From a virus: a stretch of DNA of 40,649 bases. The translations under genes and the position numbers were made by a program. The DNA lies in IMG/VR virus record IMGVR_UViG_3300031975_001995, positions 1 to 40,649 of that record, one strand, 5' to 3'. The notes under the pieces were generated by a model, which made no database searches, was not told the origin of the DNA, and was given only the letters and a program-made list of their open reading frames with translations. The stretch's first letter is position 1, and each line of letters opens with the position of its first letter. Positions 13,320 to 40,127 of this stretch are shown here, piece by piece.

Positions 13320-13320
13320 T

Positions 13321-13908: not shown

Positions 13909-13909
13909 A

Positions 13910-17851: not shown

Positions 17852-17859
17852 TCTACTAT

Positions 17860-21232: not shown

Positions 21233-21914
21233 TTAATAATTGTTTTGCTACTAATAAGTCGATTGGTTCATCTATATTTATTGTTCTACTTTCATCCATT
21301 ATATAAGGTATAATATTATCATTATCTAATCTCATTTTTTTATTAGTAATTTGTTCGTATGTCATACCATAAATTGATCCATTCCTTATATAAGCTATAG
21401 GTGCTAAATCTTGTCTTCTATAACCAGGTTTGTCAGGATTTTCATCTTTATCAAAACCTATTAATTTACCTTCCTTAATATATTTTAATCTTTTAGGATG
21501 ATAATCATATACTCTGCAAACGGATACTACTGAAGATGGATTATTTTGATCTAATAGTTCGATTACTTTATCTATATCAAAAACTTTTTTTAATGGATTA
21601 GTGCACATTATTTCTACAACATAATCATATCTTTTTAATTTTGATAATACATCTAATAATCCTTCAGCAGTTGTTTGTGTATCAGAAACTTTTTCTCTGT
21701 CTATTACATTTATATTATTATCTAAACAAATATTTTTTATATCTAGATCATCAGTACCTACTACATAGTCATCTATATATTTACTTTTTACAACTTCATC
21801 ATTAGTATATAATAATAAGGGTTTATCATTAATTAAAGTAATGTTCTTTTTTAGTATCCCTTTAGAACCACCTCGAGCTAATGTTATGCCTAATACACTT
21901 TTATTATTTATCAT
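21219..21914 (-). CDS. CMP-nonulosonate (acylneuraminate) cytidylyltransferase, 231 aa
   Basis: The start is at MINNKSVLG; a slightly longer reading would use TTG. ITLARGGSKGILKKNI is the CTP-binding loop of CMP-NeuAc/CMP-Kdo synthetases (ARgGSKG...KN). A later TNPL-x-K segment and the C-terminal INIDEPIDLLVA match the family. It activates the ulosonic acid as a CMP sugar for transfer. It lies three genes downstream of the expected host glycolysis inputs and next to the synthase set. Confidence 0.85.
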   Translation of the reverse strand: MINNKSVLGITLARGGSKGILKKNITLINDKPLLLYTNDEVVKSKYIDDYVVGTDDLDIKNICLDNNINVIDREKVSDTQTTAEGLLDVLSKLKRYDYVVEIMCTNPLKKVFDIDKVIELLDQNNPSSVVSVCRVYDYHPKRLKYIKEGKLIGFDKDENPDKPGYRRQDLAPIAYIRNGSIYGMTYEQITNKKMRLDNDNIIPYIMDESRTINIDEPIDLLVAKQLLNEDN

Positions 21915-22809
21915 ATTCAAAAGTTTTCAAAGGTCCATTATTAACATTATTATTATAAAAATCATTTATTAAAGTACCTTGATAGTAACCTTTTACCTCC
22001 TCATATGTTTGATTATTATCATATTCAAATCCCCATCTCTTACTCCATACTTCATGATGACCCCACTTACCATAAAAATGTTCTCTAATCTCAGTTTCTT
22101 GTTTTGTTTTAGCTAAAGGTGATTTAACTGGCATGTTAAAATCTTTTTTAACTATCTGTTCATGAGATAAATTTAAAAAAGGAATACAAACATTATGAAT
22201 ATTTTTATATAAAAATTGATATGCTATATCATCCCATGCATGAAAGAATTGATAGTCACCTGTTGGTTTTATATGTTTTTCATATTGATTTATATTAACT
22301 GCTGCGCTCATCCATGATACTGATTCTACTGAATGTATTTTTTCATAGCCGTTTGAAAGAGATTGATTAATATTATATCTCACCCACATATCTTGATTAG
22401 GTTGCTGTAATGGTGATCGTGATAACATTTGATAAACACCATCATGATATACATTAAAACCTACAACTCCAAATTCATTAAAATTATTTTTTTCTAATAA
22501 ATTATTAAACCTTTCAAAAAAGTTTTCTTCTATAGGAAAGCAATCATGTTGAAACCATAGGATCCATTCCAAGTTATTATTTTTAAAAATAGAACAAGCT
22601 GAGGTAATATTATTTTGCATACCTCTTTCTTCTCTATCCATGTATGTGACATTATGTTTTTCACATATGATTCTACCTTTATCTTTATTTTCTATAGTAG
22701 AATCTTCATCTATATTTAAAATAAAAATATTATTTGTATTTACTTTAGTTAACCAGTAATCTAAAAGATCATAATTATTTCTACTTGTAAATAAAATACC
22801 TAATTTCAT
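21904..22809 (-). CDS. GT-A-like glycosyltransferase, 301 aa
   Basis: It begins LGILFTSRNNYDLL and shows LWFQHDCFP (HDC in place of DxD) and SVSWMSAAVNI followed by HAWDDIAY, the acceptor/catalytic acid segment. It resembles GT2 enzymes of LPS clusters. ATGA-type overlap with gmd ties it to the GDP-sugar genes. It could be the colitosyl- or other deoxyhexose transferase, by position only. Confidence 0.7.
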   Translation of the reverse strand: MKLGILFTSRNNYDLLDYWLTKVNTNNIFILNIDEDSTIENKDKGRIICEKHNVTYMDREERGMQNNITSACSIFKNNNLEWILWFQHDCFPIEENFFERFNNLLEKNNFNEFGVVGFNVYHDGVYQMLSRSPLQQPNQDMWVRYNINQSLSNGYEKIHSVESVSWMSAAVNINQYEKHIKPTGDYQFFHAWDDIAYQFLYKNIHNVCIPFLNLSHEQIVKKDFNMPVKSPLAKTKQETEIREHFYGKWGHHEVWSKRWGFEYDNNQTYEEVKGYYQGTLINDFYNNNVNNGPLKTFEYDK

Positions 22810-23780
22810 AAGCTATATTTTTTTAACCAATAATCTATCATTTCATCTAACATAGTTTGAAAACTATATTCATGCTTCCATCCTAAAACTTTTTTAGCTT
22901 TTGAGCAATCTCCTTTTAAAAATTCTAATTCCTCTGATCTATAATATTTAGGATCTACTGTTACATATTGTTCCCAATCTAATTCTAATTTATTAAATAC
23001 ATAATGTACTAAATCTTTTACTGAGTGAGATATTCCGGTTGAACAAACATAGTCATCTGGTTTATCATGCTGTAGCATTAACCACATTGCATTAACGTAA
23101 TCTTTTGCATGTCCCCAGTCTCTATGAGCATCTAAATTTCCTAATGCTAATTTATCAGTTAATCCTAATTTAATTTTTACAGCTTCCTTAACTACTTTAT
23201 TAGTAACAAAGTTAGTACCTCTACGCGGTGATTCATGATTAAATAATATACCATTACATATAAATAAATCGTATGCATTGCGATAATTTTTACATATGTT
23301 ATATGCAAATACTTTTGCACATCCATATGGGGATACTGGACTCATAGGGGTGCTCTCTCTTTGATATCCATCATCATCTACATTATTACCAAACATCTCT
23401 GAAGATGAAGCTTGATATAATTTTGCTCTCGGACATGTTAACCTCATAGCTTCTAAAAGTTTTAATGTACCATTAGCTACAGATTCAGTAGTATAAAGAG
23501 GTTGATCAAAAGATATTCTAACATGAGACTGTGCTGCTAAATTATATATTTCATCAGGCATAGAAAGCTGTAATACTCTAACTAGAGATGACATATCAGT
23601 CATATCTGCATATTCTAGTTTTAATTTTTTAAATATACTATCTGGTATTCGAGCAGTCTGGTTTTCTGCTATCGAATTTCGTTTAAGAATACCCCATACT
23701 TCGTATCCTTTCTCTAATAGTAATTCGGCAAGATATGATCCATCTTGTCCATTTATACCTGTGATTAATGCTCTTTTCAT
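22806..23780 (-). CDS. gmd: GDP-mannose 4,6-dehydratase, 324 aa
   Basis: An extended SDR enzyme. It has the NADP loop TGINGQDGSYLAE (7-19), catalytic SSSEMFG (125-131) and the Tyr152/Lys156 pair in PYGCAKVFAY, then FNHESPRRG. These match GMD rather than dTDP-glucose 4,6-dehydratase. It converts GDP-D-mannose to GDP-4-keto-6-deoxymannose, the entry point to fucose, perosamine, rhamnose and colitose. The next two genes are the ColD- and ColC-like enzymes. Length (324) is slightly short of bacterial GMD (about 340-370). Confidence 0.93.
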   Translation of the reverse strand: MKRALITGINGQDGSYLAELLLEKGYEVWGILKRNSIAENQTARIPDSIFKKLKLEYADMTDMSSLVRVLQLSMPDEIYNLAAQSHVRISFDQPLYTTESVANGTLKLLEAMRLTCPRAKLYQASSSEMFGNNVDDDGYQRESTPMSPVSPYGCAKVFAYNICKNYRNAYDLFICNGILFNHESPRRGTNFVTNKVVKEAVKIKLGLTDKLALGNLDAHRDWGHAKDYVNAMWLMLQHDKPDDYVCSTGISHSVKDLVHYVFNKLELDWEQYVTVDPKYYRSEELEFLKGDCSKAKKVLGWKHEYSFQTMLDEMIDYWLKKYSL

Positions 23781-24919
23781 ATTGAATTAATAATATCAAT
23801 TATTTTATCTATTTCTTGAAATGTAAGATCTTGATGATTAGGAATATAAAAACCTTTTGATTCTATTATATTACAGTTATTTAGTTCCCTATAATAATCT
23901 TTACTCATTGGTTTATTACTCATATTTCCTGCTATTAAAGGTCTTACCTCTATATTATTTTCTATTAATTTTTCTACTATTTTATTTCTATTTTCGCTTA
24001 CTACTGGTATAGCAAAACTTGATATGAAATTTTCTTTATCTATAGTTAGATTAAGATTATTATTTAATTTTTCAATATAGTATTTAAAGTTTTTATTTCT
24101 TATCTTACTATATTTTTCTAGCTTATCAATAGCTCTTAAACCTAAAAAAGCTTGCAAATCTGTAGATCTTAAATTAAATCCAGGTACATAGAAATTATAT
24201 AGAGAATCGAAATCTGTTGTATGATACTTAGTTCTTAATTCTTTTTGTTTCCATTCGGGAAGATCCCTATCCCATCCGTGACTTCTCATCATTAACAACA
24301 TATGATACAATTCTTCATCATTTGTATTAATAAATCCTCCTTCGATAGTTGATAGGTGATGTCCAAAATACATTGAGAAAAAAGATGCTATGCCAAACGT
24401 TCCTAAGTATTGTTCTTTATATTTTGAACCCATACTCTCACAAACATCTTCTAGAAGTATCACATCATATTGCTGACATAATTCAATTACTTTATCCATT
24501 TCTGGAACTAGTCCTAATGGTGATACTAATATTAATGCAGATGGATTTTCCGTTTGAAATAAATGTTCTAAATCTTCTAAACAACATGATAAATCATTTA
24601 AGTTACAATCACAAAATATTGGCTCTAATCCAAGCAACATTGGTGAACTTACATCAGTTGCCCAACTTAATCCTGGTACTACTATTTTATTATTTTTTAA
24701 TCTACCTAGTTGATTTAGTGCTGCTAATGTTAATAGTATAGCTGAAGATCCTGAGTTTACAAATACAGAATATTTTGTACCTAAATAATTAGACCATTTT
24801 TTCTCTAATTCTTTAGTTAAGTCTCCCTTTGTTAATCTTGGAATAGGATCCTGATCTAACCATTTAATTAAAGATTTAATATCATTTTTATCAATAGTAT
24901 CACTAACTAATTTTATCAT
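23777..24919 (-). CDS. colD: ColD-like GDP-4-keto-6-deoxymannose 3-dehydratase, 380 aa
   Basis: A DegT-fold PLP enzyme in which the Schiff-base lysine is replaced by histidine: FFSMYFGHHLSTIEGG places the His pair at 187-188, where family members have SFxxxKxxxxxEGG. His here is diagnostic of 3-dehydratases (ColD, and RfbH/E1 in another branch), which do not transaminate the ring but remove the C3 hydroxyl. MRSHGWDRDLP and LLEDVCESMG also fit. ColD uses PLP and Glu without a partner iron-sulfur protein. It should give GDP-4-keto-3,6-dideoxymannose from the GMD product. Its direct neighbours (GMD and a GDP-fucose-synthase-like enzyme) make ColD more likely than RfbH. Confidence 0.8.
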   Translation of the reverse strand: MIKLVSDTIDKNDIKSLIKWLDQDPIPRLTKGDLTKELEKKWSNYLGTKYSVFVNSGSSAILLTLAALNQLGRLKNNKIVVPGLSWATDVSSPMLLGLEPIFCDCNLNDLSCCLEDLEHLFQTENPSALILVSPLGLVPEMDKVIELCQQYDVILLEDVCESMGSKYKEQYLGTFGIASFFSMYFGHHLSTIEGGFINTNDEELYHMLLMMRSHGWDRDLPEWKQKELRTKYHTTDFDSLYNFYVPGFNLRSTDLQAFLGLRAIDKLEKYSKIRNKNFKYYIEKLNNNLNLTIDKENFISSFAIPVVSENRNKIVEKLIENNIEVRPLIAGNMSNKPMSKDYYRELNNCNIIESKGFYIPNHQDLTFQEIDKIIDIINSI

Positions 24920-25793
24920 AAACCTTCTTAATACCTTCTTTAAAACTTGTAAATTTAAAATTAGGAAATATATTCATTAATTTTTGATTACAAACATCTT
25001 TTCTTAGTTGACCATTAAGATGTGGATAAATATAATGAATTTTATATTCCTTTCCAACTTCCTGTAAAGCAATATTAGCCATCTTATCTATTGATAAATT
25101 TTCAGTATTACTTACATTAAAAGACTCTGTAATATCATTATCAATTATAAGTTTTATTATTTTAGCTAAATCTTCAGCATATATAAATTGTCGTAGTGGT
25201 GAACCATCTCCAAATAATTCTATAATATTATTTTTACTATTTTTAATTTTTTTAAGTAATGCAGTTACAAAATGCATTTTACTATCATTATCAAAATTAT
25301 CATACTCACTATATAAATTTGTAGGAATTATATAATTATACTCAGTACCAAACTGTTTATTATATGCATCTATTTGAACTGCTAAGCATCTTTTAGCGTA
25401 ACCGTATGAAAAGTTACTAGGGGTAGGAGGACCTAAGTGTAGTATTTCTTCTTTCATTGGATAATTATTTACTTTATCCGGATAAATACAAGTACTTAGT
25501 ACTCCTAAAAATCTTTTTACTTTATATTTTTTACTTACTTTAACTATGTTAGTATTCATAAGTATGTTATCATCAAAGTAATCTCCTGGATTATTTATAT
25601 TATCTTTTATTCCTCCTACTTTGGCTGCTAAATGCACTACCCTATTAAATTTATTATTTTTAAATAATAAATCAACTTCATTTATATTTCTTAAATCTAT
25701 CTCACTACCAAGATAATATGCGTTAGGAAGAATATTCTGTAAATGTTTTCCAACCATTCCTGTCCCTCCTGTTATTAAAATATTATTATCCAT
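24903..25793 (-). CDS. colC: GDP-fucose-synthase/ColC-like epimerase-reductase, 296 aa
   Basis: An extended SDR: TGGTGMVGKHL near 8-18, HLAAKVGGI (54-62), STCIYP at 100-105 (SSCIYP in GDP-fucose synthase) and the Tyr130/Lys134 pair in SYGYAKR. GDP-fucose synthase and GDP-colitose synthase (ColC) share this architecture and carry out C5 epimerisation and C4 reduction on a GDP-4-keto sugar. Following the ColD-like gene, colitose formation is favoured. If the 3-dehydratase were absent, GDP-L-fucose would be the product, so the ambiguity rests on the neighbour. Confidence 0.75.
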   Translation of the reverse strand: MDNNILITGGTGMVGKHLQNILPNAYYLGSEIDLRNINEVDLLFKNNKFNRVVHLAAKVGGIKDNINNPGDYFDDNILMNTNIVKVSKKYKVKRFLGVLSTCIYPDKVNNYPMKEEILHLGPPTPSNFSYGYAKRCLAVQIDAYNKQFGTEYNYIIPTNLYSEYDNFDNDSKMHFVTALLKKIKNSKNNIIELFGDGSPLRQFIYAEDLAKIIKLIIDNDITESFNVSNTENLSIDKMANIALQEVGKEYKIHYIYPHLNGQLRKDVCNQKLMNIFPNFKFTSFKEGIKKVYDKIS

Positions 25794-26823
25794 TTATTAT
25801 TTGGTCTATGTAATTTGTATAATACTCTGTACTATTAAAATCTGTTCCTCCTAAAACTGTGTTCTTAATGAATTCGTTATCTGGTTTCAGATTAAGAGTT
25901 TTTAATATTATATCGTAACTAAGATCTATTAAAGCATTACAATCTTTATATATACATCCATCTTGATCTCCATATCCATAATTATTAAACATTACAGTAG
26001 GTATTCCTAATTGCAAAGGTTTAAGCATCATAGTTGAAGGATGACCTAATACTATTTCACTTTCTGCTATTAATAAATTATCATCTTCTACATCAATAAC
26101 TATTTTATAATCAATATTTGAATTAATTATACTCTTAATATAATTTATGTCTTCAGTATAATTATTTTCTTCTCTACTTTTAATTTTAATTATTATCGGC
26201 TTATTATATTTTTCTTGAAGTTTATCTAATTGTAGATTATCAAAAAAATCTTTATCCATGGGTAAAAAATGAAATCCCCATGGATCAGTATAGGTTGGTT
26301 TGTTACCTAAAAAATTTGTTATTAGTAATATATGTTTTTTTTCTCTATTTTTATATTCTTTTAATTTATCGTTAGATGGTATACCACCTGGTATTAAATG
26401 AGGTTGTACTAATTCTTTTTCTCCAAATACAAAACAACCATCAAAGCATTTTTGATAATTATTAATTGGATAGTTAAATCTATTATTACCATGACTATTG
26501 CCAATCATTAAGCATTTTCTTCTTTGATAAAGATCTCCTAGTCCAGATTGTATTCTACAATCATCAGCAATAATTAAATTATATTTTTCGAAAGGTATTT
26601 CATTAATATTACTAAAATTATTATTAAAATAACTTAAATATTTTTTATCAAACACTTCTCTTCCATCTATATTACCACCCCATTTACCATTAATCGGATG
26701 CATATGATATGTTTTAAATACATCTAAATTATATTTAGTACATAAATATGGTATGATAGGATAGATCCTTTCCCCCGATCTATATTGAGTCGTAACAAAT
26801 AATATATTTTTTTTATTACTCAC
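25786..26823 (-). CDS. GT-B-fold glycosyl- or glycerophosphotransferase-like protein, 345 aa
   Basis: The first domain (ILFVTTQYRSGERIYPIIP) and the second (ILLITNFLG; VIDVEDDNLLIAESEIVLGHPSTMMLKPLQLGIPTVMF, cited in parts) show a GT-B fold. The GHPSTMMLKPLQLGIPT loop, with its hydroxyl cluster before a helix, is like CDP-glycerol glycerophosphotransferases or capsule GT-B enzymes. The acceptor is unknown. It is coupled to the colC-like gene. Confidence 0.6.
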   Translation of the reverse strand: MSNKKNILFVTTQYRSGERIYPIIPYLCTKYNLDVFKTYHMHPINGKWGGNIDGREVFDKKYLSYFNNNFSNINEIPFEKYNLIIADDCRIQSGLGDLYQRRKCLMIGNSHGNNRFNYPINNYQKCFDGCFVFGEKELVQPHLIPGGIPSNDKLKEYKNREKKHILLITNFLGNKPTYTDPWGFHFLPMDKDFFDNLQLDKLQEKYNKPIIIKIKSREENNYTEDINYIKSIINSNIDYKIVIDVEDDNLLIAESEIVLGHPSTMMLKPLQLGIPTVMFNNYGYGDQDGCIYKDCNALIDLSYDIILKTLNLKPDNEFIKNTVLGGTDFNSTEYYTNYIDQIING

Positions 26824-27679
26824 TGATTATACTATTTACATAATCGTCTAAATTTCTAAATGGATTATATCCCAATATAGTGGTTGCCTTAGAATAATCA
26901 GCTAAAGTAGTTTCAGCTTCTCCTGGTCGATTAGGAATATATGTTTTTGTAGTTTTATACATATCAGCTACTTCGTTTATAGAATAATTTTTTCCTCTAC
27001 CAAGTTCAAAAAATTCAGCTCTTAACTCTGGATGTTTCATGCAGCTTATTAATGCATCACATATATCAAGAACGTGAGTAAAGTCTCTACGCTTTTCACC
27101 TGTACCTGTTACTGTTAGAGGTTTACCCTCTCTAAATTGTTCGTTAAATATTTGTATAACTGTTGAGTATGCAGAGTTACCTGGAATCATATGATCACCA
27201 TAAACATTATAAAATCTTGTAATAATAGTTGGCACATCATATACCTTAGAATATAATTTACATAATTCCTCTCCTACCCATTTTGAAAATGTATATGGGT
27301 TCTTATGTACTCCTCCATGTGTAGAGCTACTTCCTGCGTAAATTACTGGAGTTTTATTTTGTCTTGCATATTCTAAAACTCTTTGAGTACCAAGCATATT
27401 TGAATCAAATGTTGATATAGGAAATTTAAAAGATGGTTGGATACGAGCTAAAGCTGCTAAATGATATATTATATCAGGTTCAATATAATTTATTATCTCT
27501 GTTGATTCCTCCGTATGAATATCAGCATCTTGATATTTAACTCCATCTATTTCGTTTTCTTTATATCCAGTAGAATAATTATCTATAGAATATAATTCAG
27601 TATTTGGTTGTTGTTTTTTTAAGGATGTTAGTAAATTAGTTCCAACAAATCCTGCTCCTCCTGTTACTAATATTTTCAT
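26816..27679 (-). CDS. NAD-dependent sugar epimerase (GalE-like), 287 aa
   Basis: An SDR with TGGAGFVGTNL (7-17), IYHLAALARIQPS, YAGSSST and a catalytic YTFSK motif, then RFYNVYG and DFTHVLDI. This is the UDP-glucose 4-epimerase/dehydratase group. It probably supplies an epimerised hexose (galactose, or an N-acetyl or uronic form) for the glycan. It is smaller than GalE (about 330-340), which is common in the short bacterial members. The exact substrate cannot be read from sequence. Confidence 0.8.
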   Translation of the reverse strand: MKILVTGGAGFVGTNLLTSLKKQQPNTELYSIDNYSTGYKENEIDGVKYQDADIHTEESTEIINYIEPDIIYHLAALARIQPSFKFPISTFDSNMLGTQRVLEYARQNKTPVIYAGSSSTHGGVHKNPYTFSKWVGEELCKLYSKVYDVPTIITRFYNVYGDHMIPGNSAYSTVIQIFNEQFREGKPLTVTGTGEKRRDFTHVLDICDALISCMKHPELRAEFFELGRGKNYSINEVADMYKTTKTYIPNRPGEAETTLADYSKATTILGYNPFRNLDDYVNSIISE

Positions 27680-28293
27680 AATTTATTATAAAATTCGTTT
27701 TGTCTCTCTTGCTTACTAATTGTTTTAGGATGTAATAAACAAAACATATTATCTGTAGGTAATAATGTTTCAATCTTATACCCTTTTACTACTTCATGTA
27801 CTTTATTCTCCCATTTAATATACGAAATATTTTTCAATATACGTGACTGATAGTCAGGAAAGTTTACTCTTTTTTCATTATCTACTCTCCAGCCCCATTT
27901 TTTTATATGCTCTTCAGTTAAACCTTCTACAGTATTAATTCTTGGTACCCAGTATAAATCTACTTCAGAATTAGATTCTAAAATATCTGGAAGATGTTCT
28001 ATAAATATAGGATGTAAATATTCATCTGCATCTATTTGAAAGATATAATCTCCTGTACAATTATCTTTTAAATTATTTTTAAATGAAGCAAAGTCTTTAT
28101 TCAAAGAAAATTCTATAACTTCTATTATATCATCATAGTTACTTAAGACTTGATATACTTCAGAGGTTGTATTATCTTTATCACACTGAACTATTATCTC
28201 ATCTTGTTTTCGTACTGTATTTAATAATAATAATAAAAGTCTATCTAATTCATGATGCTCATTACAAACCGTAATGGCATAACTAATCTTCAT
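27676..28293 (-). CDS. Family 2 glycosyltransferase, 205 aa
   Basis: The start is at MKISYAITV, overlapping the upstream gene end. It has an IIVQCDKDNTTSEV donor segment, then GDYIFQIDADEYLHP, the DxD (DAD) motif, and RVNFPDYQSRILK as the catalytic/acceptor part, as in the WaaE/KdtX-like GT2 group. There is no membrane anchor. Donor not known. Confidence 0.8.
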   Translation of the reverse strand: MKISYAITVCNEHHELDRLLLLLLNTVRKQDEIIVQCDKDNTTSEVYQVLSNYDDIIEVIEFSLNKDFASFKNNLKDNCTGDYIFQIDADEYLHPIFIEHLPDILESNSEVDLYWVPRINTVEGLTEEHIKKWGWRVDNEKRVNFPDYQSRILKNISYIKWENKVHEVVKGYKIETLLPTDNMFCLLHPKTISKQERQNEFYNKL

Positions 28294-28753
28294 TATCTTC
28301 TTTTTCAAAAACTCCTATATAATCTAATGCTTCAATAAAATCATTTTTATTAAATGATTGTAATGTTTTAGTATCAGATGCATATTTGTAATATCCACCT
28401 TTTGGATTTTTAAACATTTCTTTTTCGTGTTCTTCAATTATCCGATGTTTCATTGCTGCCCATTTCCAATCTTCTGTTGTAGTACCTTTTACAAAAACTG
28501 ATCCTTTACCTTGTACATCTAAATAGGATGGCATCCATTTTAATCCTTCTGCATCTTCAAATATTAAATCTTTATATAATTCAGGTAAAGTTTTTAATTG
28601 TTCTTCGTAAAACTCTTCTCCTATTTTCATAAGAGAATTACTTTGAAATCCACAACCATAACACATATAGTTGGTTACTTCCATACTAACACGATTTTTA
28701 TAACATGCATCACTTTTACGCTCACATGGACAAATAGTTAAATTATCAGTCAT
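28283..28753 (-). CDS. Zinc-ribbon-like protein within the glycan island, 156 aa
   Basis: The N-terminus has CPC (8-10), a further Cys, and YMCYGCG (29-35), giving a C-x-C...C-x-x-C arrangement that could hold one zinc. The remaining 120 residues are helical and acidic/aromatic (LKTLPELYKDLIFEDAEG; TEDWKWAAMKHRII). No sugar-handling motif is seen, so it is the one clear outsider in the island: perhaps a regulator, chaperone or protein-acceptor recognition factor. Confidence 0.6.
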   Translation of the reverse strand: MTDNLTICPCERKSDACYKNRVSMEVTNYMCYGCGFQSNSLMKIGEEFYEEQLKTLPELYKDLIFEDAEGLKWMPSYLDVQGKGSVFVKGTTTEDWKWAAMKHRIIEEHEKEMFKNPKGGYYKYASDTKTLQSFNKNDFIEALDYIGVFEKEDNED

Positions 28754-30119
28754 TACTTACATTTTGTAATTTAGGAAATGTTTCTTTTTTATTATCTATT
28801 TTAGGTTTTTCTAATTTAGGTAATTGTAATTTAGGTAAGGTAGAATTTATTTTTTTATCTAATTTAGGTAATTTTAATTTAGGTAAATTTAATTGTACTT
28901 GCTTAGGAAATTCCGGAATGTACTTATCTAAAATTTCATCTAATTTAATTTGCATATTATTTAAAGAAAAGTTTTTAATATTTTTAGTACCTTGCTTTTT
29001 ACCTCTAATTAAATACTCTTCATAATTATTAAATACTACCATCATAGCTCCTGCAAATGATTGTAAATCAACATTAAACCATTTACTATCTTTAATAATC
29101 CATTCATTAGCTGCTCCTCCATCCACATCTTTTAATTCTCCTGCTAATAATATTGATAAATCTTTATCTAAAAAATCTACATGTCCAGACCATCCTGAAG
29201 CTATAACTGGTTTTTTAGTTGCAGTAAATTCTAATAATGGTCTTCCAAATCCTTCACCTTTAGTTAAAGATACCATTGCTTTAATCTTTTTATGATTATA
29301 TAAGCAACTCATCTCTTCATTTGTTAAATCTCCATGAACTAGATAAATATTAGGCAATCTATTAGCTTTAACGCCTTTTTTAATTTGATCTATTTTCTTC
29401 AATAAATTATTTCTATCTAGTATAGATGAATTACCATGACATGTTTTTAATATTAATGCAGGTGCATTTTTTTTATTTTTAAATAATTCTAAAAAACCTT
29501 TTACTAATAATCCTACATTTTTTCTATCTTCTCCAATATTACCTTGCATCCAATGACCTACGAATAAAAAACAAAAATCTTCTTTAACTTTATTAAGATT
29601 AAATTTTGATTTTTTAATTTTATATACTTCAGTATCAATACCTTCAAAAAGAACTTCCATAGGTACTTCCGGCTTAACTTGTCCTACTACACTATTAGAA
29701 CGTTTATCTACTTTTTCATAAATACTATTATTGAACGAATTAATAGTATGATTTGAAGATCCTATAATTAAATCCATTCTATTAAGGCCTTCTACCCATT
29801 CAGAACGAGCTGCTGTAGTTTCAATACCAGCTGTTAATCCTATATTAAATTTTCCTACTTTTTGAAACTCAGATGGTATAGTATGCTGAATCCAAATATC
29901 AGGTTGGCGATCAGGTTTTTCAATATAAAATTCTTTTAAATAGGTCCATTCTTCATTATCATCTAGAAAAAATTCTGGAGTAGATCCCCAACGTTGAGGA
30001 ATAATTTTTACATCATATTTATCTAAATTTATTAGAGCTTTAACAAAATCTCTTCCTCTTGCTCCATAACCAGAATAGGTATCTACTGGTGAAGATATAA
30101 CTAAATATGGTTTACTCAT
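28746..30119 (-). CDS. GT-B (GT4-type) glycosyltransferase with PKL-repeat tail, 457 aa
   Basis: Two Rossmann-like domains: FCFLFVGHWMQG opens the second one, and SLTKGEGFGRPLLEF carries the E-x7-E donor-binding signature. After about residue 404 the chain turns into Lys/Pro/Leu-rich repeats (LPKLKLPKL at 412-420, LPKLQLPKL at 428-436, then PKI and FPKL). These are encoded by repeated AATTTAGGTAA-like DNA on the plus strand. The tail may bind membrane or another glycan enzyme. It forms a pair with the following GT-B protein. Confidence 0.8.
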   Translation of the reverse strand: MSKPYLVISSPVDTYSGYGARGRDFVKALINLDKYDVKIIPQRWGSTPEFFLDDNEEWTYLKEFYIEKPDRQPDIWIQHTIPSEFQKVGKFNIGLTAGIETTAARSEWVEGLNRMDLIIGSSNHTINSFNNSIYEKVDKRSNSVVGQVKPEVPMEVLFEGIDTEVYKIKKSKFNLNKVKEDFCFLFVGHWMQGNIGEDRKNVGLLVKGFLELFKNKKNAPALILKTCHGNSSILDRNNLLKKIDQIKKGVKANRLPNIYLVHGDLTNEEMSCLYNHKKIKAMVSLTKGEGFGRPLLEFTATKKPVIASGWSGHVDFLDKDLSILLAGELKDVDGGAANEWIIKDSKWFNVDLQSFAGAMMVVFNNYEEYLIRGKKQGTKNIKNFSLNNMQIKLDEILDKYIPEFPKQVQLNLPKLKLPKLDKKINSTLPKLQLPKLEKPKIDNKKETFPKLQNVSND

Positions 30120-30120
30120 T

Positions 30121-31560
30121 TTAATATATTAATTTATGTTTTAAACGTTGAGGTTCAAATTCGGTAGAATTATAAACTTCATAATTACTTCTAGGTTGAA
30201 ATTCGTCAAAAGTTTTATCTATTGCTTGTATAATTCTTTTAGACATAATACTTGCAGTAAAACCTATTTTTTTAGATTTTGCCCATTCTCTTCCTTTCAA
30301 TCCCTTTTCTTTCAATTTATTACGATCATTATATGCTGTTTCTATTGCTGTAACTGCATCTCTTATATCGATTCTATCATCAAAAATATAAGGTGTTTTA
30401 GGAGACCCTTGTAATGATACTGATGTAGGATATACAGGATAACACCACTCTCCGTGCTGTCTTAATGTACCATAATGATTAGAAGGTAAATCTACTGTGG
30501 GCGTAAACCATTTACCATTTTTATCTAAAAAGCCCATTTGATCTTGCATACCACCAGTTACTGTAGCAATAAAAGGAGTACCACACATTATCGCTTCCGT
30601 TAAAGCTAATCCCCATCCTTCGTTTGAAGACAACTGAATTTGTACATCAGCTATATTATATAGCCAATGCATTTGTAAAGTACCTAATCTTTGATTTGTA
30701 AACTTAATAGCATTATCATATTTACCGCCAAATAAATATTCAGATAAAGCAATTAAGTCTGTACCATGTTCAGAAACTAATTCAGTATGAACTATAAAAG
30801 TACATTTATCAGCATCTTTTTTATCTAACTTATCTAAGAATATTCTAAATGCTGTCATTGCATCTGGTAGCTGCTTTCTTCTCATATTACGAGAATTAAA
30901 AAGCATAGTAAAATCATAATCTTTATCTAATAAAGTATTTTTAAATTTTAAATAATCTTTATAATCCCCATCAGAATCATTTTTAGGATAAAAAACTTCA
31001 TCATTTATACCATGTGGAATATATTCTATAATTTTATCTTTTGCCTTACTACCTAATACAGTTTCATTTATTAATTTTGTTTGCTTAGATATTGCTAGTA
31101 ATGCATCACATGATTCATAAAAAGCTTCATTATATTGAGGTGCAGGTAAATCATCCCATATGTTGAGATAAATAATAGGCATATCTTTCCTTAATTCTCT
31201 TTCCATATGAAATAACCATTCAAAATATCTAGGATCAGTAATAATCATTAATCCGTCAGGTTGTTCGATATCAATTATCTGTCTAACTAATTGAGGATCA
31301 CCATAACCATCTACTGGATATATCATACAGTAGATATCTTTAATTCCTAATTCTTTTTCAAATGCATTACTAATATCTAATCTTTTACCTTTGTCAGGAT
31401 GTTTTATTGATCCAGCAATACAAGCCCAGTTATAGTGTTCACTGGTTTGCATAACTATATCTTTTGCTACATTAGCTACTCCTGAGTTAGATCTAATATC
31501 GTCGCAGATCAGTAAGATTTTTTTTCTTTCTGATCTTGGTTTATAACTTACTGTTTTCAT
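30121..31560 (-). CDS. GT-B (GT4-type) glycosyltransferase, 479 aa
   Basis: Full GT-B: ILLICDDIRSNSGVANVAKD at the start, ISKQTK and PHGIND before the second domain, MLFNSRNMRRKQLPDA opening it and SSNEGWGLALTEA as the E-x7-E donor site, then GTPFIATVTGG. It is the first glycan gene after the ribbon-helix-helix regulator and only 5 nt from it. Donor unknown. Confidence 0.85.
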   Translation of the reverse strand: MKTVSYKPRSERKKILLICDDIRSNSGVANVAKDIVMQTSEHYNWACIAGSIKHPDKGKRLDISNAFEKELGIKDIYCMIYPVDGYGDPQLVRQIIDIEQPDGLMIITDPRYFEWLFHMERELRKDMPIIYLNIWDDLPAPQYNEAFYESCDALLAISKQTKLINETVLGSKAKDKIIEYIPHGINDEVFYPKNDSDGDYKDYLKFKNTLLDKDYDFTMLFNSRNMRRKQLPDAMTAFRIFLDKLDKKDADKCTFIVHTELVSEHGTDLIALSEYLFGGKYDNAIKFTNQRLGTLQMHWLYNIADVQIQLSSNEGWGLALTEAIMCGTPFIATVTGGMQDQMGFLDKNGKWFTPTVDLPSNHYGTLRQHGEWCYPVYPTSVSLQGSPKTPYIFDDRIDIRDAVTAIETAYNDRNKLKEKGLKGREWAKSKKIGFTASIMSKRIIQAIDKTFDEFQPRSNYEVYNSTEFEPQRLKHKLIY

Positions 31561-32991: not shown

Positions 32992-33154
32992 GAATTAATT
33001 TATTTACTGTATAATCTTCTTTGATTAAATTTAAATTCTTTTTTAATTTACGATTTAATCGCCACGTTTTCCAACTATTATCTTGTTTATTTTCAGCTAA
33101 TGTATGAAGTTCATCAGTAATCTTAGATATTTGTTTATAAGGATTATTTTTCAT
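32981..33154 (-). CDS. Hypothetical basic protein, 57 aa
   Basis: The ATG at 33154 overlaps the end of the gp62-like gene, and the stop lies inside the MazG-like start. The sequence is Lys/Asn/Trp-rich and helical (WKTWRLNRKLKKNLNLI). Nucleic-acid binding is possible. No family. Confidence 0.5.
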   Translation of the reverse strand: MKNNPYKQISKITDELHTLAENKQDNSWKTWRLNRKLKKNLNLIKEDYTVNKLIHGK

Positions 33155-33578
33155 TCAAAACTTTTTTAATTTCTTTTTCTTCTTTACCAACACTTTCTAA
33201 TATTTCTTTTAATATATCTTTATCTAAAAACTTTAATACTTCTTTAACTTCTCTTTCACTAAATTTATAATAGTTAGTTAAGGCCTCTACTAATTCTTTA
33301 TTAGGTTGTTTAACTTTAGATTTAATATATTTAAAAAATGTTTTTTTCTTAGGAAGAATATTTTTATAACAAAGGTAGACAGCTTTCTTATCAAGTGGAT
33401 TAAGAAGTTGAAGCTCATTTACTAAACTTGCATAAGGTCCATACATACTTACAAATCTATGTATCATATATGAATTAAACTTATCCCAGTCTTGATCTGA
33501 AAACTGATCTACCTCTGTTTTAAGATAGCTAATATGATTTAGCCAGTCAAAAATATTATTTATATTATTGCTTTTCAA
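33144..33578 (-). CDS. Clamp-loader small subunit, gp62-like, 144 aa
   Basis: The signature FNSYMIHRFVSMYGPYASLVNE and then KAVYLCYKNILPKKKTFFKYIK (both cited in parts) match the T4-type gp62 subunit, with a C-terminal helical segment FSEREVKEVLKFL. It forms the 4:1 gp44/gp62 clamp loader with the product at 33831. The genes are separated only by the 89-aa ORF and are overlapping, so the complex is made from one message. Confidence 0.8.
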   Translation of the reverse strand: MKSNNINNIFDWLNHISYLKTEVDQFSDQDWDKFNSYMIHRFVSMYGPYASLVNELQLLNPLDKKAVYLCYKNILPKKKTFFKYIKSKVKQPNKELVEALTNYYKFSEREVKEVLKFLDKDILKEILESVGKEEKEIKKVLNEK

Positions 33579-33834
33579 TTACGAAATCTTTATATTCTTC
33601 TTTTAGAGGCTCGGGAATACTATCAGCTAAGATCATTCCTGAGCTTGGTTCATAAAAAACTGGAATTGGTAGAATAGCATCATCGCTTGTATTAGCTACA
33701 AACTTTGAAACTTTTCTAAGAATAAATCCTTGAGCAAAAATATTTGCTGCGTTAGATTCAGATTCAGTTTTTACTGCTGTTGTTGCACTTAGATCAATAT
33801 CTAGTTGCGGTTGAGGGGTTTGTACATCATTCAT
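33565..33834 (-). CDS. Hypothetical protein between clamp-loader genes, 89 aa
   Basis: The N-terminal third is disordered-like (Ser, Thr and Gln rich, [16 protein letters not shown]), followed by a strand/helix part ([19 protein letters not shown]) and an acidic end. The start overlaps the gp44 stop (ATGA), and the stop overlaps the gp62 start. No family; it could modulate the clamp loader. Confidence 0.55.
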
Positions 33835-34754
33835 AATACTTGTTTTTGATTTAATATATTAATAATTTCTGATAATAACGCCATAACGTTAATTTCTTTA
33901 TCTATTCTAAAATTTGCTTTATAACTATATTCATTGATAAGAATAACTATTTCATGCTCTTTTCCTGGAGCATATTCAGAACTTTGATCATATAACTTTT
34001 TAAATAACTCTTCGAAATCTTTTACTCCTGAATCAGCTATTATCTGTCGCAGCTCTCTCCAGTTACATTTACTTTTAAGATTATCGATTATTTGTTTATG
34101 GTATGCTGATGATACTACTGTTGACTTAGTTAAGTCAAGTTTACCTTTCTTAGAGAACATCTGAATAGTATTCAGCATTTTTCTTAAGTCTGGATAGTAA
34201 GTATTAACTACATCCTTTAATGATTCTTTTTCGTATTCAATCTTCTCTTCATCTAAGATAGAAACTAAATGTAATGCTATATCTTTCTTAGAAGGAGGAA
34301 TAATATTTACAACCTGACATCTTGATTGAATAGGATCAATAATCTTCTCTACATAGTTACAAGTTAAAATAAATCTTGTATTACGAGAGTATTGCTCCAT
34401 TACATTTCTTAATGCAGCTTGAGACTGAATAGTAAGGTAATCCGCCTCATCTAATATAACTACTTTAAGAGGTTTGAAAGACATAGTAGAAGCAAATCCT
34501 ACTACTTTCTCTCTAATAGTATCTATACCTCTTTCATCAGAAGCATTAATGTAAATATAATCACATTCAATTTTATTTACTATTAATTTAGCAGCTGATG
34601 TCTTTCCTGTTCCGGCAGGTCCGTATAGTAACAAGTTCTGAATATCGTTCTCTGCAATATACAGAGAGACGATATCCTTGAACTCTTGATTACCAACATA
34701 ACTATCTACAGACTGTGGTCTATATTTTTCTACAAATAAACTATGATCTTGCAT
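33831..34754 (-). CDS. Clamp-loader large subunit, gp44-like AAA+ ATPase, 307 aa
   Basis: [15 protein letters not shown] at 7-21, Walker [12 protein letters not shown] (43-53), Walker B VVILDEAD (98-105), sensor-1 FILTCNY (128-134) and the SRC motif (144-146) of clamp loaders. Matches T4 gp44 and RFC/DnaX in order. It loads the gp45-like clamp at 37517. Confidence 0.92.
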
Positions 34755-35010: not shown

Positions 35011-36642
35011 TTAAAACATTTGAGGCATAACTCCAACTTCTTGACCATCTTTTTCTTCTCCTTCTACAGAAATAGTTCCTTCAGTTAAGAGAATAGTTCC
35101 AGCAATAGAAGCTGCATTTAGTAAGGCGTTCTTAGTTACTTTAAAAGGATCAATAATTCCATACTCTTTCATATCTCCTACTTTTTCAGTTTTAAGATTA
35201 TATCCATCCCAAAAGTCTGAAAGTGATAAAGAATAAGCAATTTTATCAATATCCTTAGGCGTTTTACCAGCATTAGATAAAATAGTATCAAAAGGTTTCA
35301 TAATTGCTTCTTTTACAAAAATTTCTCCTAAATTAAAATCTCTAGATACATCTTCAGTAAATTCAAAGTTTTCTGAAATATAATATAATGCTCTTCCTCC
35401 TCCAGGTAGAATACCATCTTCGATTGCACATTTAGTAGCAAATAAAGCATCTTCAACTCGATCTTTTCTTTCTTTCATTTCAGCTTCTGTCATTCCACCA
35501 ACATGAATAATCGATACTCCACCAGTCATTTTAGCTAAGCGATCCTGTAATGCTTGAGTTTCAAACGGCGTAGAAGATTGATCGATTTGAGATTGAAGAG
35601 ATTCCACATGCGTTTTAATAGTATCTTCATTACCATGACCATCTATAATAGTAGTTTTATCTTTAGTAATTTTAGCTGATCTGCATGAACCCATCCAGGA
35701 CCAGTCAAATTTATCTAATTTCATTCCCTTGGCAATAGAAAATACTTCCCCTCCAGTCAGCTTAGCAATATCATCTAATACTAATTTTTTACGATCTCCA
35801 AACTCTGGTGATTTAACTGCACATACTTTTAGAGAGCCTCTCATTTTATTAACAATTAAAGTTGCTAAAGCTTCTCCTTCAATATCATCACAAATAATTA
35901 ATAGTGACTTATTATTAGATGAAGCATGATTTAAAATAGGAAGTAATTCTTTTACATTCCGAAAAGTATGATCAGCAATAAGAACTGCTACATCGTTCAT
36001 ATTACATGTCATAGTATCATTATGAGTGACAAAGTAATGTGATTTATATCCTCTATCAAATTGCATACCTTCTACTACTTCAAGATATGTTTCCCCTGTT
36101 TTACTTTCTTCAATATGAACTACTCCATTAGATCCTGCTGAATCTAATCCTTCATATACTAAATTACCAATTTCTTCATCATTATTACCTGAGATAGTTG
36201 CTACGTTAATTAATTCTTGAGGATCAGAAATATCTTCTGCTAAATTTGATAAAGAAGAAATAATGCTTTTCACAGCACTATCAATACCTTTTTTAATTTC
36301 AGTAGCATTTCCTCCTTCATCTAATCTCTCTAAACCTAATTTAACTATTTCTCTAGCTAGTAAAGTAGAAGTAGTTGTACCATCTCCTACCTTATCAGCT
36401 GTATTGATTGCTGCTTGTTTAATTAATTTAATACCTAAATTCTCAATAGGATGTTCAAGTTGTTGTATTTGTTTTGCAACTGTTACACCATCTTTTGTAG
36501 AATATACTTTACCTTCTTCTTCATAAATAATATTTCTACCATTCGGTCCTAATGTTGATACTACCGCATCAGCTAATTTATTAATACCATTTACTAGCTC
36601 TTTTCTAGCTTCAGTTCCTAATGTTACTTTTTGTTTACTCAT
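35011..36642 (-). CDS. groL: GroEL-type chaperonin, 543 aa
   Basis: A complete group I chaperonin: TLGPNGRNIIYEEE at 30-43, ITKDG equivalent (TKDG 49-52), the ATP loop VGDGTTT (85-91), GRVED-like RVEDALFATKCAIEDG with the hydrolysis Asp, and GILPGGGRALYY. The apical region is present, so it should form the 14-mer and work with the phage GroES just upstream. The C-terminal GGM repeat tail of bacterial GroEL is missing (it ends VGVMPQMF). It likely folds phage structural or replication proteins during infection. Confidence 0.95.
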   Translation of the reverse strand: MSKQKVTLGTEARKELVNGINKLADAVVSTLGPNGRNIIYEEEGKVYSTKDGVTVAKQIQQLEHPIENLGIKLIKQAAINTADKVGDGTTTSTLLAREIVKLGLERLDEGGNATEIKKGIDSAVKSIISSLSNLAEDISDPQELINVATISGNNDEEIGNLVYEGLDSAGSNGVVHIEESKTGETYLEVVEGMQFDRGYKSHYFVTHNDTMTCNMNDVAVLIADHTFRNVKELLPILNHASSNNKSLLIICDDIEGEALATLIVNKMRGSLKVCAVKSPEFGDRKKLVLDDIAKLTGGEVFSIAKGMKLDKFDWSWMGSCRSAKITKDKTTIIDGHGNEDTIKTHVESLQSQIDQSSTPFETQALQDRLAKMTGGVSIIHVGGMTEAEMKERKDRVEDALFATKCAIEDGILPGGGRALYYISENFEFTEDVSRDFNLGEIFVKEAIMKPFDTILSNAGKTPKDIDKIAYSLSLSDFWDGYNLKTEKVGDMKEYGIIDPFKVTKNALLNAASIAGTILLTEGTISVEGEEKDGQEVGVMPQMF

Positions 36643-36931
36643 TATCTTTAATTTTTGCTAAAACTTCTTTTTCATTAATAATAAAATATTCTTCATCCAT
36701 ATAAATAAATTTTGAATATCCAGTTGATGGTAAGACGATTTTATCGCCTGGTTTAAGGGTTGTTTCTATAAAAGAACCAGTAACAGTATGATATCCAGGA
36801 CCTACTTCAATTACTTCTCCTACTTCATTTAAATCTTTTCCCATATCGGGAACTATAATATTGCCGTATGTAGTTTCATCTTTTTCTAATTTTTTAAAGA
36901 TAACGGCATCAAACATTGGTTTAAAACTCAT
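36635..36931 (-). CDS. groS: GroES-type co-chaperonin, 98 aa
   Basis: The start is set at the ATG at 36931 (MSFKPMFDAV); a TTG further upstream would extend it through the leader. The order PMFDAVIFKKLEKDETTYGNI, VGEVIEVGPGY, LKPGDKIVLP and then KFIYMDEEYFIINEKEVLA (cited in parts) fits the 10-kDa chaperonin, with a mobile loop around TTYGNI. It overlaps groL by a few bases. Confidence 0.88.
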   Translation of the reverse strand: MSFKPMFDAVIFKKLEKDETTYGNIIVPDMGKDLNEVGEVIEVGPGYHTVTGSFIETTLKPGDKIVLPSTGYSKFIYMDEEYFIINEKEVLAKIKDNE

Positions 36932-36980
36932 AATAAAATTTTTAATTTTTAAAAATAACCAGGAACGGGTCAAATATAAC

Positions 36981-37400
36981 TTATTTAATTTGTAGCGTTT
37001 TTGGTTTAGATTCTTCTCTCATCGGAATACTAACCTCAAGTAAACCATTTTCCATTTTAGCTTTAGCTTTTGATAAATCAAATCTAGGATTAATTTTCCA
37101 TCCAAAGTTAAATGATTTTCGAGTAATACTTCTATTAAGATAATAAACGGAATCGTCTACTTCTTCTTTAGGTTTTTCATAAATTACTCTTAAAACGTCT
37201 TCATTAGTCTCTAAGATAAGATTATCTTTAGTTAAACCTACACAGGCTATATTAAAGTTTAATGAATCGTCCTTTTGAAAAATATCAACTGGATAGTTGA
37301 ATTTTGTCATGCTGATTGGTTGGAAACGCTCAGCTGCGTTAAAAAAATCTTTGAAAAATACATCAAAGATATGTTCTTGTTCTCTTAAAAGATTTCCCAT
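36981..37400 (-). CDS. Hsp20/alpha-crystallin small heat-shock protein, 139 aa
   Basis: A standard small heat-shock protein: an N-terminal FFKDFF segment, strands of the alpha-crystallin domain (YPVDIFQKDDSLNFNIAC, cited in parts), VGLTKDNLILETNEDVLRV and the C-terminal KMENGLLEVSIP, with the final P-K-x-L-x-I-x tail motif. It holds unfolded protein until GroEL can act. T4-like phages of marine bacteria often carry an Hsp20 near the replication genes. Confidence 0.88.
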   Translation of the reverse strand: MGNLLREQEHIFDVFFKDFFNAAERFQPISMTKFNYPVDIFQKDDSLNFNIACVGLTKDNLILETNEDVLRVIYEKPKEEVDDSVYYLNRSITRKSFNFGWKINPRFDLSKAKAKMENGLLEVSIPMREESKPKTLQIK

Positions 37401-37516: not shown

Positions 37517-38245
37517 TTATCCTTTTCTTAAAATATAATATAATGATTTTAATTCTCTATCACTAAATTCTAACTTCATTAATCCACCCTCATTAATAGA
37601 CATTAATGCTTTTTCTCCTGATTTATTAGCTCGTAATATAGTTTGAATTAGTTTAGAATTAAAAGGAATACTTTGTAATTCCCCAGTATAATCACATGGT
37701 ATATTATATTCTACCTTATTTGTATGAGCAGTAATATCACCAAAAGAAAAACTAATTACTTTTTGATCCGTAATATCTACTTTAGTATTAACTATTACAT
37801 TATCATTATCTTGTAATGCATCGTTTGCTTTACTAAAATTATTAATATCCTCATCTCCTATTTCTATAACTGCTTGATAATTTTCCGGTTCTTTTACTTC
37901 TCCTACTTTATCAAATAAAACAGGATCACCTAAAGTATATGCTAAATTAAAAAATTGATCAGATATTAATAATTTAGCAGGAATATTATTTCTTTTTTCT
38001 ACTTCTACTAATAAATCACCTGATGTAATTTTAATAAGTTTATTTAGTTGTGATGTATTATGAATGCCTAATTGACTATCTTCTAAATCAAAATTATTAG
38101 ATTCTACCTTACCAATACAATCTCTAGTAGGAGTCATAAAATCTACTACTAGATTCTTATTATTTACTACCCACTTAACAGTTTCGACTTGCTTATCTAA
38201 GCTATATCGATCTACAATATCAACTAATGTACTTTTATTTATCAT
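37517..38245 (-). CDS. Sliding clamp, gp45-like, 242 aa
   Basis: A T4-type processivity clamp: an N-terminal helix-strand unit, LVVDFMTPTRDCIGKV, then DLLVEVEKRNN and the C-terminal GGLMKLEFSDRELKSLYYIL, as in gp45. Length (242) is near that of gp45 (228). It is 3 nt from the polymerase-fragment stop, and its loader subunits lie at 33144-34754. Confidence 0.85.
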   Translation of the reverse strand: MINKSTLVDIVDRYSLDKQVETVKWVVNNKNLVVDFMTPTRDCIGKVESNNFDLEDSQLGIHNTSQLNKLIKITSGDLLVEVEKRNNIPAKLLISDQFFNLAYTLGDPVLFDKVGEVKEPENYQAVIEIGDEDINNFSKANDALQDNDNVIVNTKVDITDQKVISFSFGDITAHTNKVEYNIPCDYTGELQSIPFNSKLIQTILRANKSGEKALMSINEGGLMKLEFSDRELKSLYYILRKG

Positions 38246-38248
38246 ATT

Positions 38249-39178
38249 TTAAAATGTAAAGAATTTAGATGAATGAGGATTTAGATTTAATACCCATCCA
38301 ATATCTCCATAAAAACCTTGTAATTTTTTTAATAGCACAGATTCAAATATTTTTTCTCTATCAGCGTACTCATTCATAAATGTACGAACTTTATCTGGAA
38401 TATCAAAATCTAAAAAGGCTATTGCATCAATTTTATACGGATTATCTTTAAGATAAATCCATTTAATCTTATCTCCTTGAGCTATAAAAGAATGCTTCTT
38501 ATCTAATCCCCAATAGCGTAATAGATCATTGTAGCGTAAAGCTGCCTTAACAGAAGCTAATGCACCCTTAGTTGTAGGAGTAAATAGTTCTCCAGGTTTA
38601 GGTTTACGTTCTACATAATCATCCATAGTATTAACTGCAGTAGGATTACCTAGTAATACAATATCAGTTTCTTTAGACAAAGTTCTTTTCTTGAAATCTA
38701 ATATCTTTTGATCAATCTCTTCTTTAGCAATACCTTTTAGAGCTTGCTTCATTATTCCATAGAAGAACTCCGAGAAGTATTTCGGGAAATTAGTTTTCAT
38801 ATACTCTAATCCCTTGAAAGAAAGATACTCATTTTTAATATGTTCTTCCCTTGTTATCCATTGTGCATACCTACGAACAGATCTAAAGTAAGCTGAACGT
38901 ATAACACATTCTGTTTTCATCTCTAATCTATGATCTTTGCAATTAAAGATATCTGTTGCTACGCTTTGGTAATGATCATTTAATACATCTTGAAACTTAA
39001 TAGCAGTCTTCTCTAATAGATCATCTTTCTCATCATCAGTCTTTTCATCAAAGTCTGGATAAAGATATCTTAGTATTGGAAGAGCTTTAACATATACTGA
39101 ATCAGTATCAGTATAGATACTAAAGTTTTCTTCACCTGCAGGGCAAATATATTCAGGAATTGTCTGAAGTTGTTTCAT
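38249..39178 (-). CDS. Family-B DNA polymerase, C-terminal part, 309 aa
   Basis: The chain opens just ahead of motif C (FSIYTDTDS, 19-27), the second catalytic-aspartate motif of family-B polymerases, and continues through KTECVIRSAYFRSVRRYAQW (the KxY region) and the thumb, ending NLNPHSSKFFTF with a clamp-binding-like aromatic tail. The exonuclease domain, motif A and fingers are absent. The remainder must be encoded elsewhere: split gp43 genes are known in some T4-related phages. An ATG and a short upstream gene suggest a designed split, not a frameshift. Confidence 0.88.
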   Translation of the reverse strand: MKQLQTIPEYICPAGEENFSIYTDTDSVYVKALPILRYLYPDFDEKTDDEKDDLLEKTAIKFQDVLNDHYQSVATDIFNCKDHRLEMKTECVIRSAYFRSVRRYAQWITREEHIKNEYLSFKGLEYMKTNFPKYFSEFFYGIMKQALKGIAKEEIDQKILDFKKRTLSKETDIVLLGNPTAVNTMDDYVERKPKPGELFTPTTKGALASVKAALRYNDLLRYWGLDKKHSFIAQGDKIKWIYLKDNPYKIDAIAFLDFDIPDKVRTFMNEYADREKIFESVLLKKLQGFYGDIGWVLNLNPHSSKFFTF

Positions 39179-39305
39179 TAATTAAGCCTAATTTCTTTTT
39201 TACTTCTTCTTTTGTTTTACCTTTAATCTTAAAGATAGGATTATTTTCAAAATATCCAAACCAAAGATTGTATTTTTCATCAAAAAATATATGAACTTTA
39301 TTCAT
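39153..39305 (-). CDS. Small protein ahead of the polymerase part, 50 aa
   Basis: From the ATG at 39305 a 50-residue protein (VHIFFDEKYNLWFGYFENNP, then TKEEVKKKLGL) ends inside the polymerase start, in another frame. The strand-strand-helix shape is like a short HicB-type unit. It overlaps the polymerase by 26 nt, so it is coupled to it. No firm family. Confidence 0.55.
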   Translation of the reverse strand: MNKVHIFFDEKYNLWFGYFENNPIFKIKGKTKEEVKKKLGLINETTSDNS

Positions 39306-39318
39306 AGGAAATAGTTAA

Positions 39319-39334
39319 GGCCTCCGAAGAGGCC
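39319..39334 (-). other. Strong UUCG-tetraloop hairpin
   Basis: On the minus strand GGCCTC-TTCG-GAGGCC is a perfect 6-bp GC stem with a UUCG loop, the most stable tetraloop class. It lies between the DUF932 stop and the 50-aa start. It has no following T-run, so it may be a processing or stabilising hairpin rather than a simple terminator. Confidence 0.65.
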
Positions 39335-39341
39335 GTTATTA

Positions 39342-40127
39342 TTATTGAGCGTACTCGATAGCTAGTTCAAAAAGCTCTTTATTTACCTTAGTATCTTTTT
39401 TGAAGTCCGTAATTGGACGAGCTTTACGAGTAGAATCTTCGATTACATAATTAAATCGTCCGTGGATAATTTTCTCTTGGATAAGATTAAATACAGACCA
39501 TACTGAGCGATCTGCATCTTCACGACGAGTAGGTTCGATTAACTCTTGATAATTAATCTGAATAGTTTTTAACTGCTTTTCAGTAAAGCGAGACTTAACT
39601 GCTTCTTTTGCAAAGTTAATCATCTCTTGTTGAGACATTTTAGTTTCAGCCATTTTATTCATAGACTCTACAGTAAGAGGTAAAGCTTCTACAAGCTTGT
39701 TAATTACTTTAGTTACCTCTTCATAGGTATAATTAATATGACGAATTTTCATATCTGCAAAGCTTTCCTCAGCAATCACAAGACCATTAGAGCAAACCAA
39801 TCGAAATAATCCAGCCATAAATCTAAATGCTCCTAAACCATTATGAGCATTAGACATTACTATTTGAGGATAAACAATATCTCCGTTACGATCGATACTA
39901 ATATCTGGATTACGGAAGGTTACAGTGTGATGACCTGTAGTAGAACCTTTTCGTGATTTACGAGATTGAGCTTTTACTACTCCCCATCCCATAGTAGCTA
40001 GATCATCTATTACTTGAGAGGTTGGAATATGAACATACTTTTTAGAAACTCTACTATCAGGCTTACCATAAACCTCAGGGCAATTAGCAGCAATTTCAGT
40101 ACTTGTTAGAAAATTAAAATTCGACAT
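39342..40127 (-). CDS. DUF932-family protein, 261 aa
   Basis: The start is placed at MSNFNFLTS (40127), after an intergenic element; the longer reading to 40286 covers non-coding leader and the basic-protein gene. The body (DSRVSKKYVHIPTSQVIDDL; HHTVTFRNPDI; NAHNGLGAFRFMAGLFRLVCSNGL, cited in parts) matches the DUF932/phage-plasmid-like protein family, whose function is unknown. Its position ahead of the polymerase part suggests a replication-time role. Confidence 0.8.
   Translation of the reverse strand: MSNFNFLTSTEIAANCPEVYGKPDSRVSKKYVHIPTSQVIDDLATMGWGVVKAQSRKSRKGSTTGHHTVTFRNPDISIDRNGDIVYPQIVMSNAHNGLGAFRFMAGLFRLVCSNGLVIAEESFADMKIRHINYTYEEVTKVINKLVEALPLTVESMNKMAETKMSQQEMINFAKEAVKSRFTEKQLKTIQINYQELIEPTRREDADRSVWSVFNLIQEKIIHGRFNYVIEDSTRKARPITDFKKDTKVNKELFELAIEYAQ

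Follow-up and report, generated by a model that had tools for sequence, protein, structure and literature searches.

Replicative DNA polymerases of the T4 type (gp43) encoded by two separate genes are known from a few Aeromonas phages, where the split looks like an accident of inserted sequence. In Aeromonas phage 25, the two products gp43A and gp43B co-purify and are active (Petrov et al. 2010, as described in PMC2988022). A split family B polymerase (PolB) is also found in Methanobacteriales (Kelman et al. 1999, as cited in PMC4104785), and in Nanoarchaeum equitans the PolB break falls within motif C itself, at the pol-c site, where intein halves bring the two chains back together (PMC549080). 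For the split of archaeal PolB3, erratic intein excision has been proposed (PMC4104785). No paper on the split shared by the phage clade described here was found in a search of open-access literature; subscription journals were mostly outside the scope of this search, and the split may be described there.

The C-terminal polymerase chain

The window, i.e. the whole stretch of DNA analysed here, is a single contig of 40,649 bases from one virus record. On its minus strand, a 309-aa ORF with an ATG start (38249–39178) was matched by the C-terminal part of two PHROG polymerase profiles (phrog_1918, E-value 2e-39; phrog_262, E-value 6e-39), with a Pfam DNA_pol_B score below the cut-off of that family. 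In a profile alignment with RB69 gp43, residue 10 of the ORF corresponded to RB69 residue 607, and an AlphaFold2 model of the isolated C-terminal part (C-part) matched RB69 and T4 gp43 in Foldseek. The ORF has the palm end and thumb of gp43 in sequence and fold, including motif C, and does not combine the exonuclease domain, motif A and motif C on one polypeptide. We consider it very probable (roughly 0.86) that it encodes the smaller, C-terminal chain of a T4-type family B replicase that is produced as two polypeptides.

A previous sequence-only reading of the locus had proposed a polymerase split just before motif C, and this was borne out: YTDTDS, with its two catalytic aspartates (39098–39115, minus strand), makes up residues 22–27 of the ORF. 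The distance from the start had been given as 18 residues; the closeness to motif C stands, whereas the actual number is 21. This 21-residue head (39116–39178, minus strand) is specific to the clade of split polymerases described below, in which the start is also conserved.

Conservation of the split among relatives

A scan of viral contigs with the C-part identified 80 loci, mostly 50–61% identical, and in the 76 loci examined a stop codon was found at most 9 codons upstream, with the ORF beginning at the homologous methionine. When phrog_262 was applied to 20 contigs, 19 had a separate N-terminal part (N-part, to about profile position 569) and C-part (from about 558), while the exceptional contig starts merely 373 nt ahead of its C-part. 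The two parts jointly span the whole profile (about 14–569 and 558–853), and the N-parts, about 560–600 aa in size, comprise the exonuclease domain, motif A and the fingers. The N-part had 537 relatives in one virus collection; the best 80 of these were combined with the C-part scan and duplicates were removed, leaving 101 distinct junctions. In all of them the C-part begins at one shared residue, and a matching N-part lies just upstream in 93, the halves overlapping by 1 or 4 nt in 55 and being spaced by 2–1996 nt in the other 38 (the junction value of L029/L160 is -4). No intact polymerase was found among the members of the split clade represented by the 101 junctions. Many of the loci with an N-part alone are intact relatives in which motif C departs from the pattern Y.DTDS.

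In a maximum-likelihood tree of C-parts, the window sequence was placed on a long branch of its own within one split clade with 100/100 support. Recurrence of the same start in about 100 distinct related junctions makes the split more than a chance event; it is real and fixed in a whole phage lineage, the carriers being numerous uncultured phages, most of them marine. One contig (L054, 4857–4965) contains a 6-nt insertion that gives an in-frame TAA within motif C (AYSDT*ADSIY), at the site where inteins insert in other PolB genes; the insertion may be real or an assembly artefact.

Junction residues and selection

Intact T4-type relatives have 28–29 residues between the GQ of the helix following motif B and motif C. 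In the split clade this stretch typically comprises 26 residues on the N-part and 21 on the C-part, in total 47, a gain of approximately 18 residues that are not present in the intact relatives. Within the C-part head, M1, P8, I11, C12 and N18 are invariant in the alignment. Compared to a close relative (L062), the C-part of the window differs at 37 of 540 nt and 6 of 180 aa, corresponding to a dN/dS of 0.054, which falls in the range of the neighbouring genes; the C-part is under purifying selection.

In the AlphaFold2 model of the isolated C-part, the thumb region (residues 133–300; 38279–38782, minus strand) was confidently predicted, while palm residues 1–31 and 85–128 had pLDDT values below 50, which could itself be explained by the shallow input alignment of 25 sequences. 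The unfolded palm of this model would lend weak support to a palm that needs the other chain.

The N-terminal part and other polymerases

A search for the N-terminal half in the rest of the genome, as the sequence-only reading had advised, returned nothing on this 40.6-kb fragment: the PF00136 search of the window was empty, and tblastn with five N-parts gave no E-value below 2, compared to 3e-121 for the C-part control. The 1.3 kb remaining upstream in the window hold a DUF932 gene and small ORFs. The N-part was likewise absent from every contig known to be the same phage as the window, and viral contigs searched with the neighbouring DUF932 gene did not yield it. As the largest gap in the relatives is 1996 nt, the N-part of this phage could still sit just past the end of the contig. 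Since the gap is here filled with cargo genes (the 50-aa ORF discussed below, the DUF932 gene and others), the N-part gene would lie beyond the contig end or elsewhere, and we infer its presence in this phage from the relatives.

No intact second polymerase was detected in the window or the largest relatives. No polymerase of family A was found in the window. In the large relatives (three of ~164 kb and one of 130 kb, contigs that are possibly incomplete), the two PolB halves are the only polymerase genes, families A and C being absent.

The short ORF and genes inserted between the halves

The 50-aa ORF (39153–39305, minus strand) overlaps the start of the C-part by exactly 26 nt in a different frame, as had been claimed, an arrangement that would allow translational coupling of the two. 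The UUCG hairpin noted ahead of it is present as well (39319–39334, minus strand), separating the 50-aa ORF from the DUF932 gene. It has a perfect 6-bp stem (GGCCUC-UUCG-GAGGCC), and the window contains no other GC-rich hairpin of this type. None was found in 0.8 Mb of related loci either, so the hairpin is not conserved; it is a possible mRNA end or processing structure.

No relatives of the 50-aa ORF were found when looked for, and the ORF shows no similarity to homing endonucleases or inteins; a degenerate inserted element, as suggested by the sequence-only reading, is thus not indicated. The gaps of relatives encode a SET-domain protein, a dTDP-sugar epimerase, a GIY-YIG protein and Smr-like proteins, and further genes resembling, as judged by eye, cupins, an NAD-type epimerase and cysteine synthase. 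A family of ~86 aa (KQxIRK...FFRKMLKQGG...NSKGE) recurs between the polymerase halves of many relatives (L027 5753–6004, L076 5709–5969, L023 5738–6001 and others), with no significant Pfam match. As the gaps are filled by unrelated genes and the 50-aa ORF has no relatives, the simplest reading is that it is most likely another such cargo gene.

Neighbouring genes and host

The DUF932 gene upstream of the junction (39342–40127, minus strand; PF06067, E-value 3e-34 when tested on 39342–40115) has an inferred start at MSNFN. Directly downstream of the C-part is a putative sliding clamp gene (37517–38245, minus strand), which matches phrog_947 weakly (E-value 0.05) and takes the position of a 244–250-aa gene in relatives and in Microcystis phage Mel-JY01. 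The clamp loader gene gp44 (33831–34754; phrog_168, E-value 4e-86) and a gp62-like clamp loader gene (33144–33578; phrog_225, E-value 3e-15), both on the minus strand, place the polymerase in a replisome neighbourhood in which the clamp assignment is weak by profile. Hsp20, GroES and GroEL genes are found in a row at 35011–37400, flanked by those for the clamp and the clamp loader.

Among phages, the GroEL was best matched by that of Flavobacterium phage immuto (53.5% identity), which carries a polymerase of family A and none of family B. Shine-Dalgarno-like sites precede 1 of 51 window genes, fewer than expected from shuffling, compared to 25 of 51 in phage 44RR, and are found for 6 of 93 in the relatives. 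The rarity of these sites, together with the GroEL match, suggests a Bacteroidota host; the Bacteroidota promoter pattern TAnnTTTG was not enriched. Elsewhere in the window, translations inspected by eye indicate ~20 kb of sugar and surface-polysaccharide genes (11863–31560), including glycosyltransferases, epimerases, aminotransferases and a NeuB-like gene, and a gene of the IMP dehydrogenase/GMP reductase family is located at 6519–7520 (PF00478, E-value 2e-100).

A proposed two-chain polymerase and alternative explanations

In the proposed enzyme, the large chain (~560–600 aa) would provide the exonuclease domain and motif A, together with the fingers and the helix of motif B, and would end in the loop that leads into the strand of motif C, while the small chain (~310 aa) would begin in the same loop and bring motif C, the remaining palm and the thumb. 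The two most likely fold non-covalently into one active site, to which the motif A and motif C aspartates would be contributed by different chains; the sequence-only reading had anticipated such a separation, and it is supported by the N-parts seen in relatives, the window having none. The junction is probably held in part by the ~18 residues gained at the new termini, and polymerase activity of the assembled pair would be expected by analogy.

Inteins occur at motif C of other PolB genes, both in the uncultured phage LR756508 and in archaeal and Mimivirus genes (PMC549080), and one could accordingly imagine a split intein that splices the halves as proteins, or an intron that does so in the RNA, into a single ordinary chain. 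However, with 47 residues at the junction against 29 in intact enzymes, the ~18 extra ones are far too few for intein halves, and no intein match was found in the C-part. The Rfam search of the window gave no match, so that neither a group I nor a group II intron is recognisable at the break, where the coding sequences of relatives overlap by 1–4 nt; every C-part moreover has its own start codon, which in many cases overlaps the stop of the N-part. Joining was rejected on the number of extra residues, the empty Rfam search and the separate start codons, and is extremely unlikely. That the C-part might instead be a decaying relic in a phage replicating with another polymerase is in line with the N-part not being found on the window contig and with a related Immutovirus in which the polymerase belongs to family A and family B is absent, but over 180 codons only 6 of 37 substitutions change the amino acid (the dN/dS of 0.054 given above), the invariant residues and motif C of the C-part are intact, and the window encodes no family A polymerase. 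The selection estimate and the intact motif C led to rejection of the pseudogene reading, which we regard as very unlikely.

The window being one contig, the apparent split could also reflect an assembly or sequencing error, such as the frameshift that the sequence-only reading had allowed for, but about 100 distinct junctions, drawn from many metagenomes, begin the C-part at an identical position, and in 38 the halves are separated by sequence; this comparison refutes the error, whose probability is practically negligible. The 50-aa protein had further been offered as a linker, i.e. a third subunit joining the halves, and its 26-nt overlap means that it would be co-translated with the C-part. 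Such a role is nonetheless highly improbable, given that 55 of 93 relatives lack room for a gene between the halves, that the others carry mostly unrelated genes of many kinds and that the protein itself has no relatives.

The reading of the ORF as one subunit of a two-chain polymerase can be extended to a more far-reaching, and at present tentative, proposal, which we hold to be possible rather than probable: that a phage lineage which is abundant, mostly marine and probably hosted by Bacteroidota replicates with an obligatory two-subunit PolB with catalytic aspartates paired across proteins and a lineage-specific interface of ~18 residues, the split being a stable, useful trait and not a tolerated accident. 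If true, the split could have a use of its own, for example as a gene-insertion site, in the independent dosing of the two chains, or as an escape from inteins or homing endonucleases aimed at motif C. The split lies next to the catalytic loop in every examined member of a lineage with hundreds of N-part relatives in a single collection, which provides a natural two-chain replicase in which to study how a PolB active site comes together from separate chains, and gives protein engineering a split point ready for use. The split is also a warning that C-part genes on such contigs are easily misread as truncated polymerases.

Comparison with known split polymerases

The Methanobacteriales enzyme resembles the clade in being a two-chain family B polymerase with no intein halves and a break close to motif C. 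Its large chain, however, ends ~10–15 residues past motif C, so that both aspartate motifs are on one chain, while the clade breaks ahead of motif C; its genes are on different contigs in the assemblies examined. The N. equitans polymerase is likewise broken close to motif C, but unlike the clade it has intein halves. More similar is LR756508, a 484-kb uncultured phage in which 24 residues precede motif C on the C-part and a separate N-part gene is found upstream (L002 5020–6885 and 8276–9670; also L106), although this polymerase differs by having inteins in both halves, at NSxYG and YTD|TDS. By eye, another intein is seen at the Walker A motif of its clamp loader.

LR756508 was found to group with the intact polymerase of Mel-JY01 (support 93/89), outside the clade of the window. 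Mel-JY01 has the closest polymerase of any named phage (36% identity to the C-part, 34% to an N-part) and shares the replisome gene neighbourhood of the window, but its polymerase of 848 aa is intact; it and two near relatives, also intact, are the closest outside sequences. From this placement, it seems that splits arose repeatedly in the neighbourhood of motif C, or that the halves were rejoined in the Mel-JY01 lineage. By analogy with the proposal for archaeal PolB3, the split of the clade may possibly have arisen by imprecise loss of an element near motif C.

As in Aeromonas phages 44RR and 25, a T4-type polymerase is encoded by two genes, with motif A on the first chain and motif C on the second; this complementary coding is seen in the relatives, the N-part not being in the window. 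The sequence-only reading had set the break apart from that of known split gp43, and it does lie nearer to the active site, but the separation of the aspartates is not new, being found in 44RR as well. In 44RR the break precedes motif B, 50 residues before NSLYG; counted along 43B, motif B falls at residue 50 and motif C at 105, whereas in the clade it follows motif B and lies 21 residues ahead of motif C. What is new is the position of the break and its fixation in a lineage.
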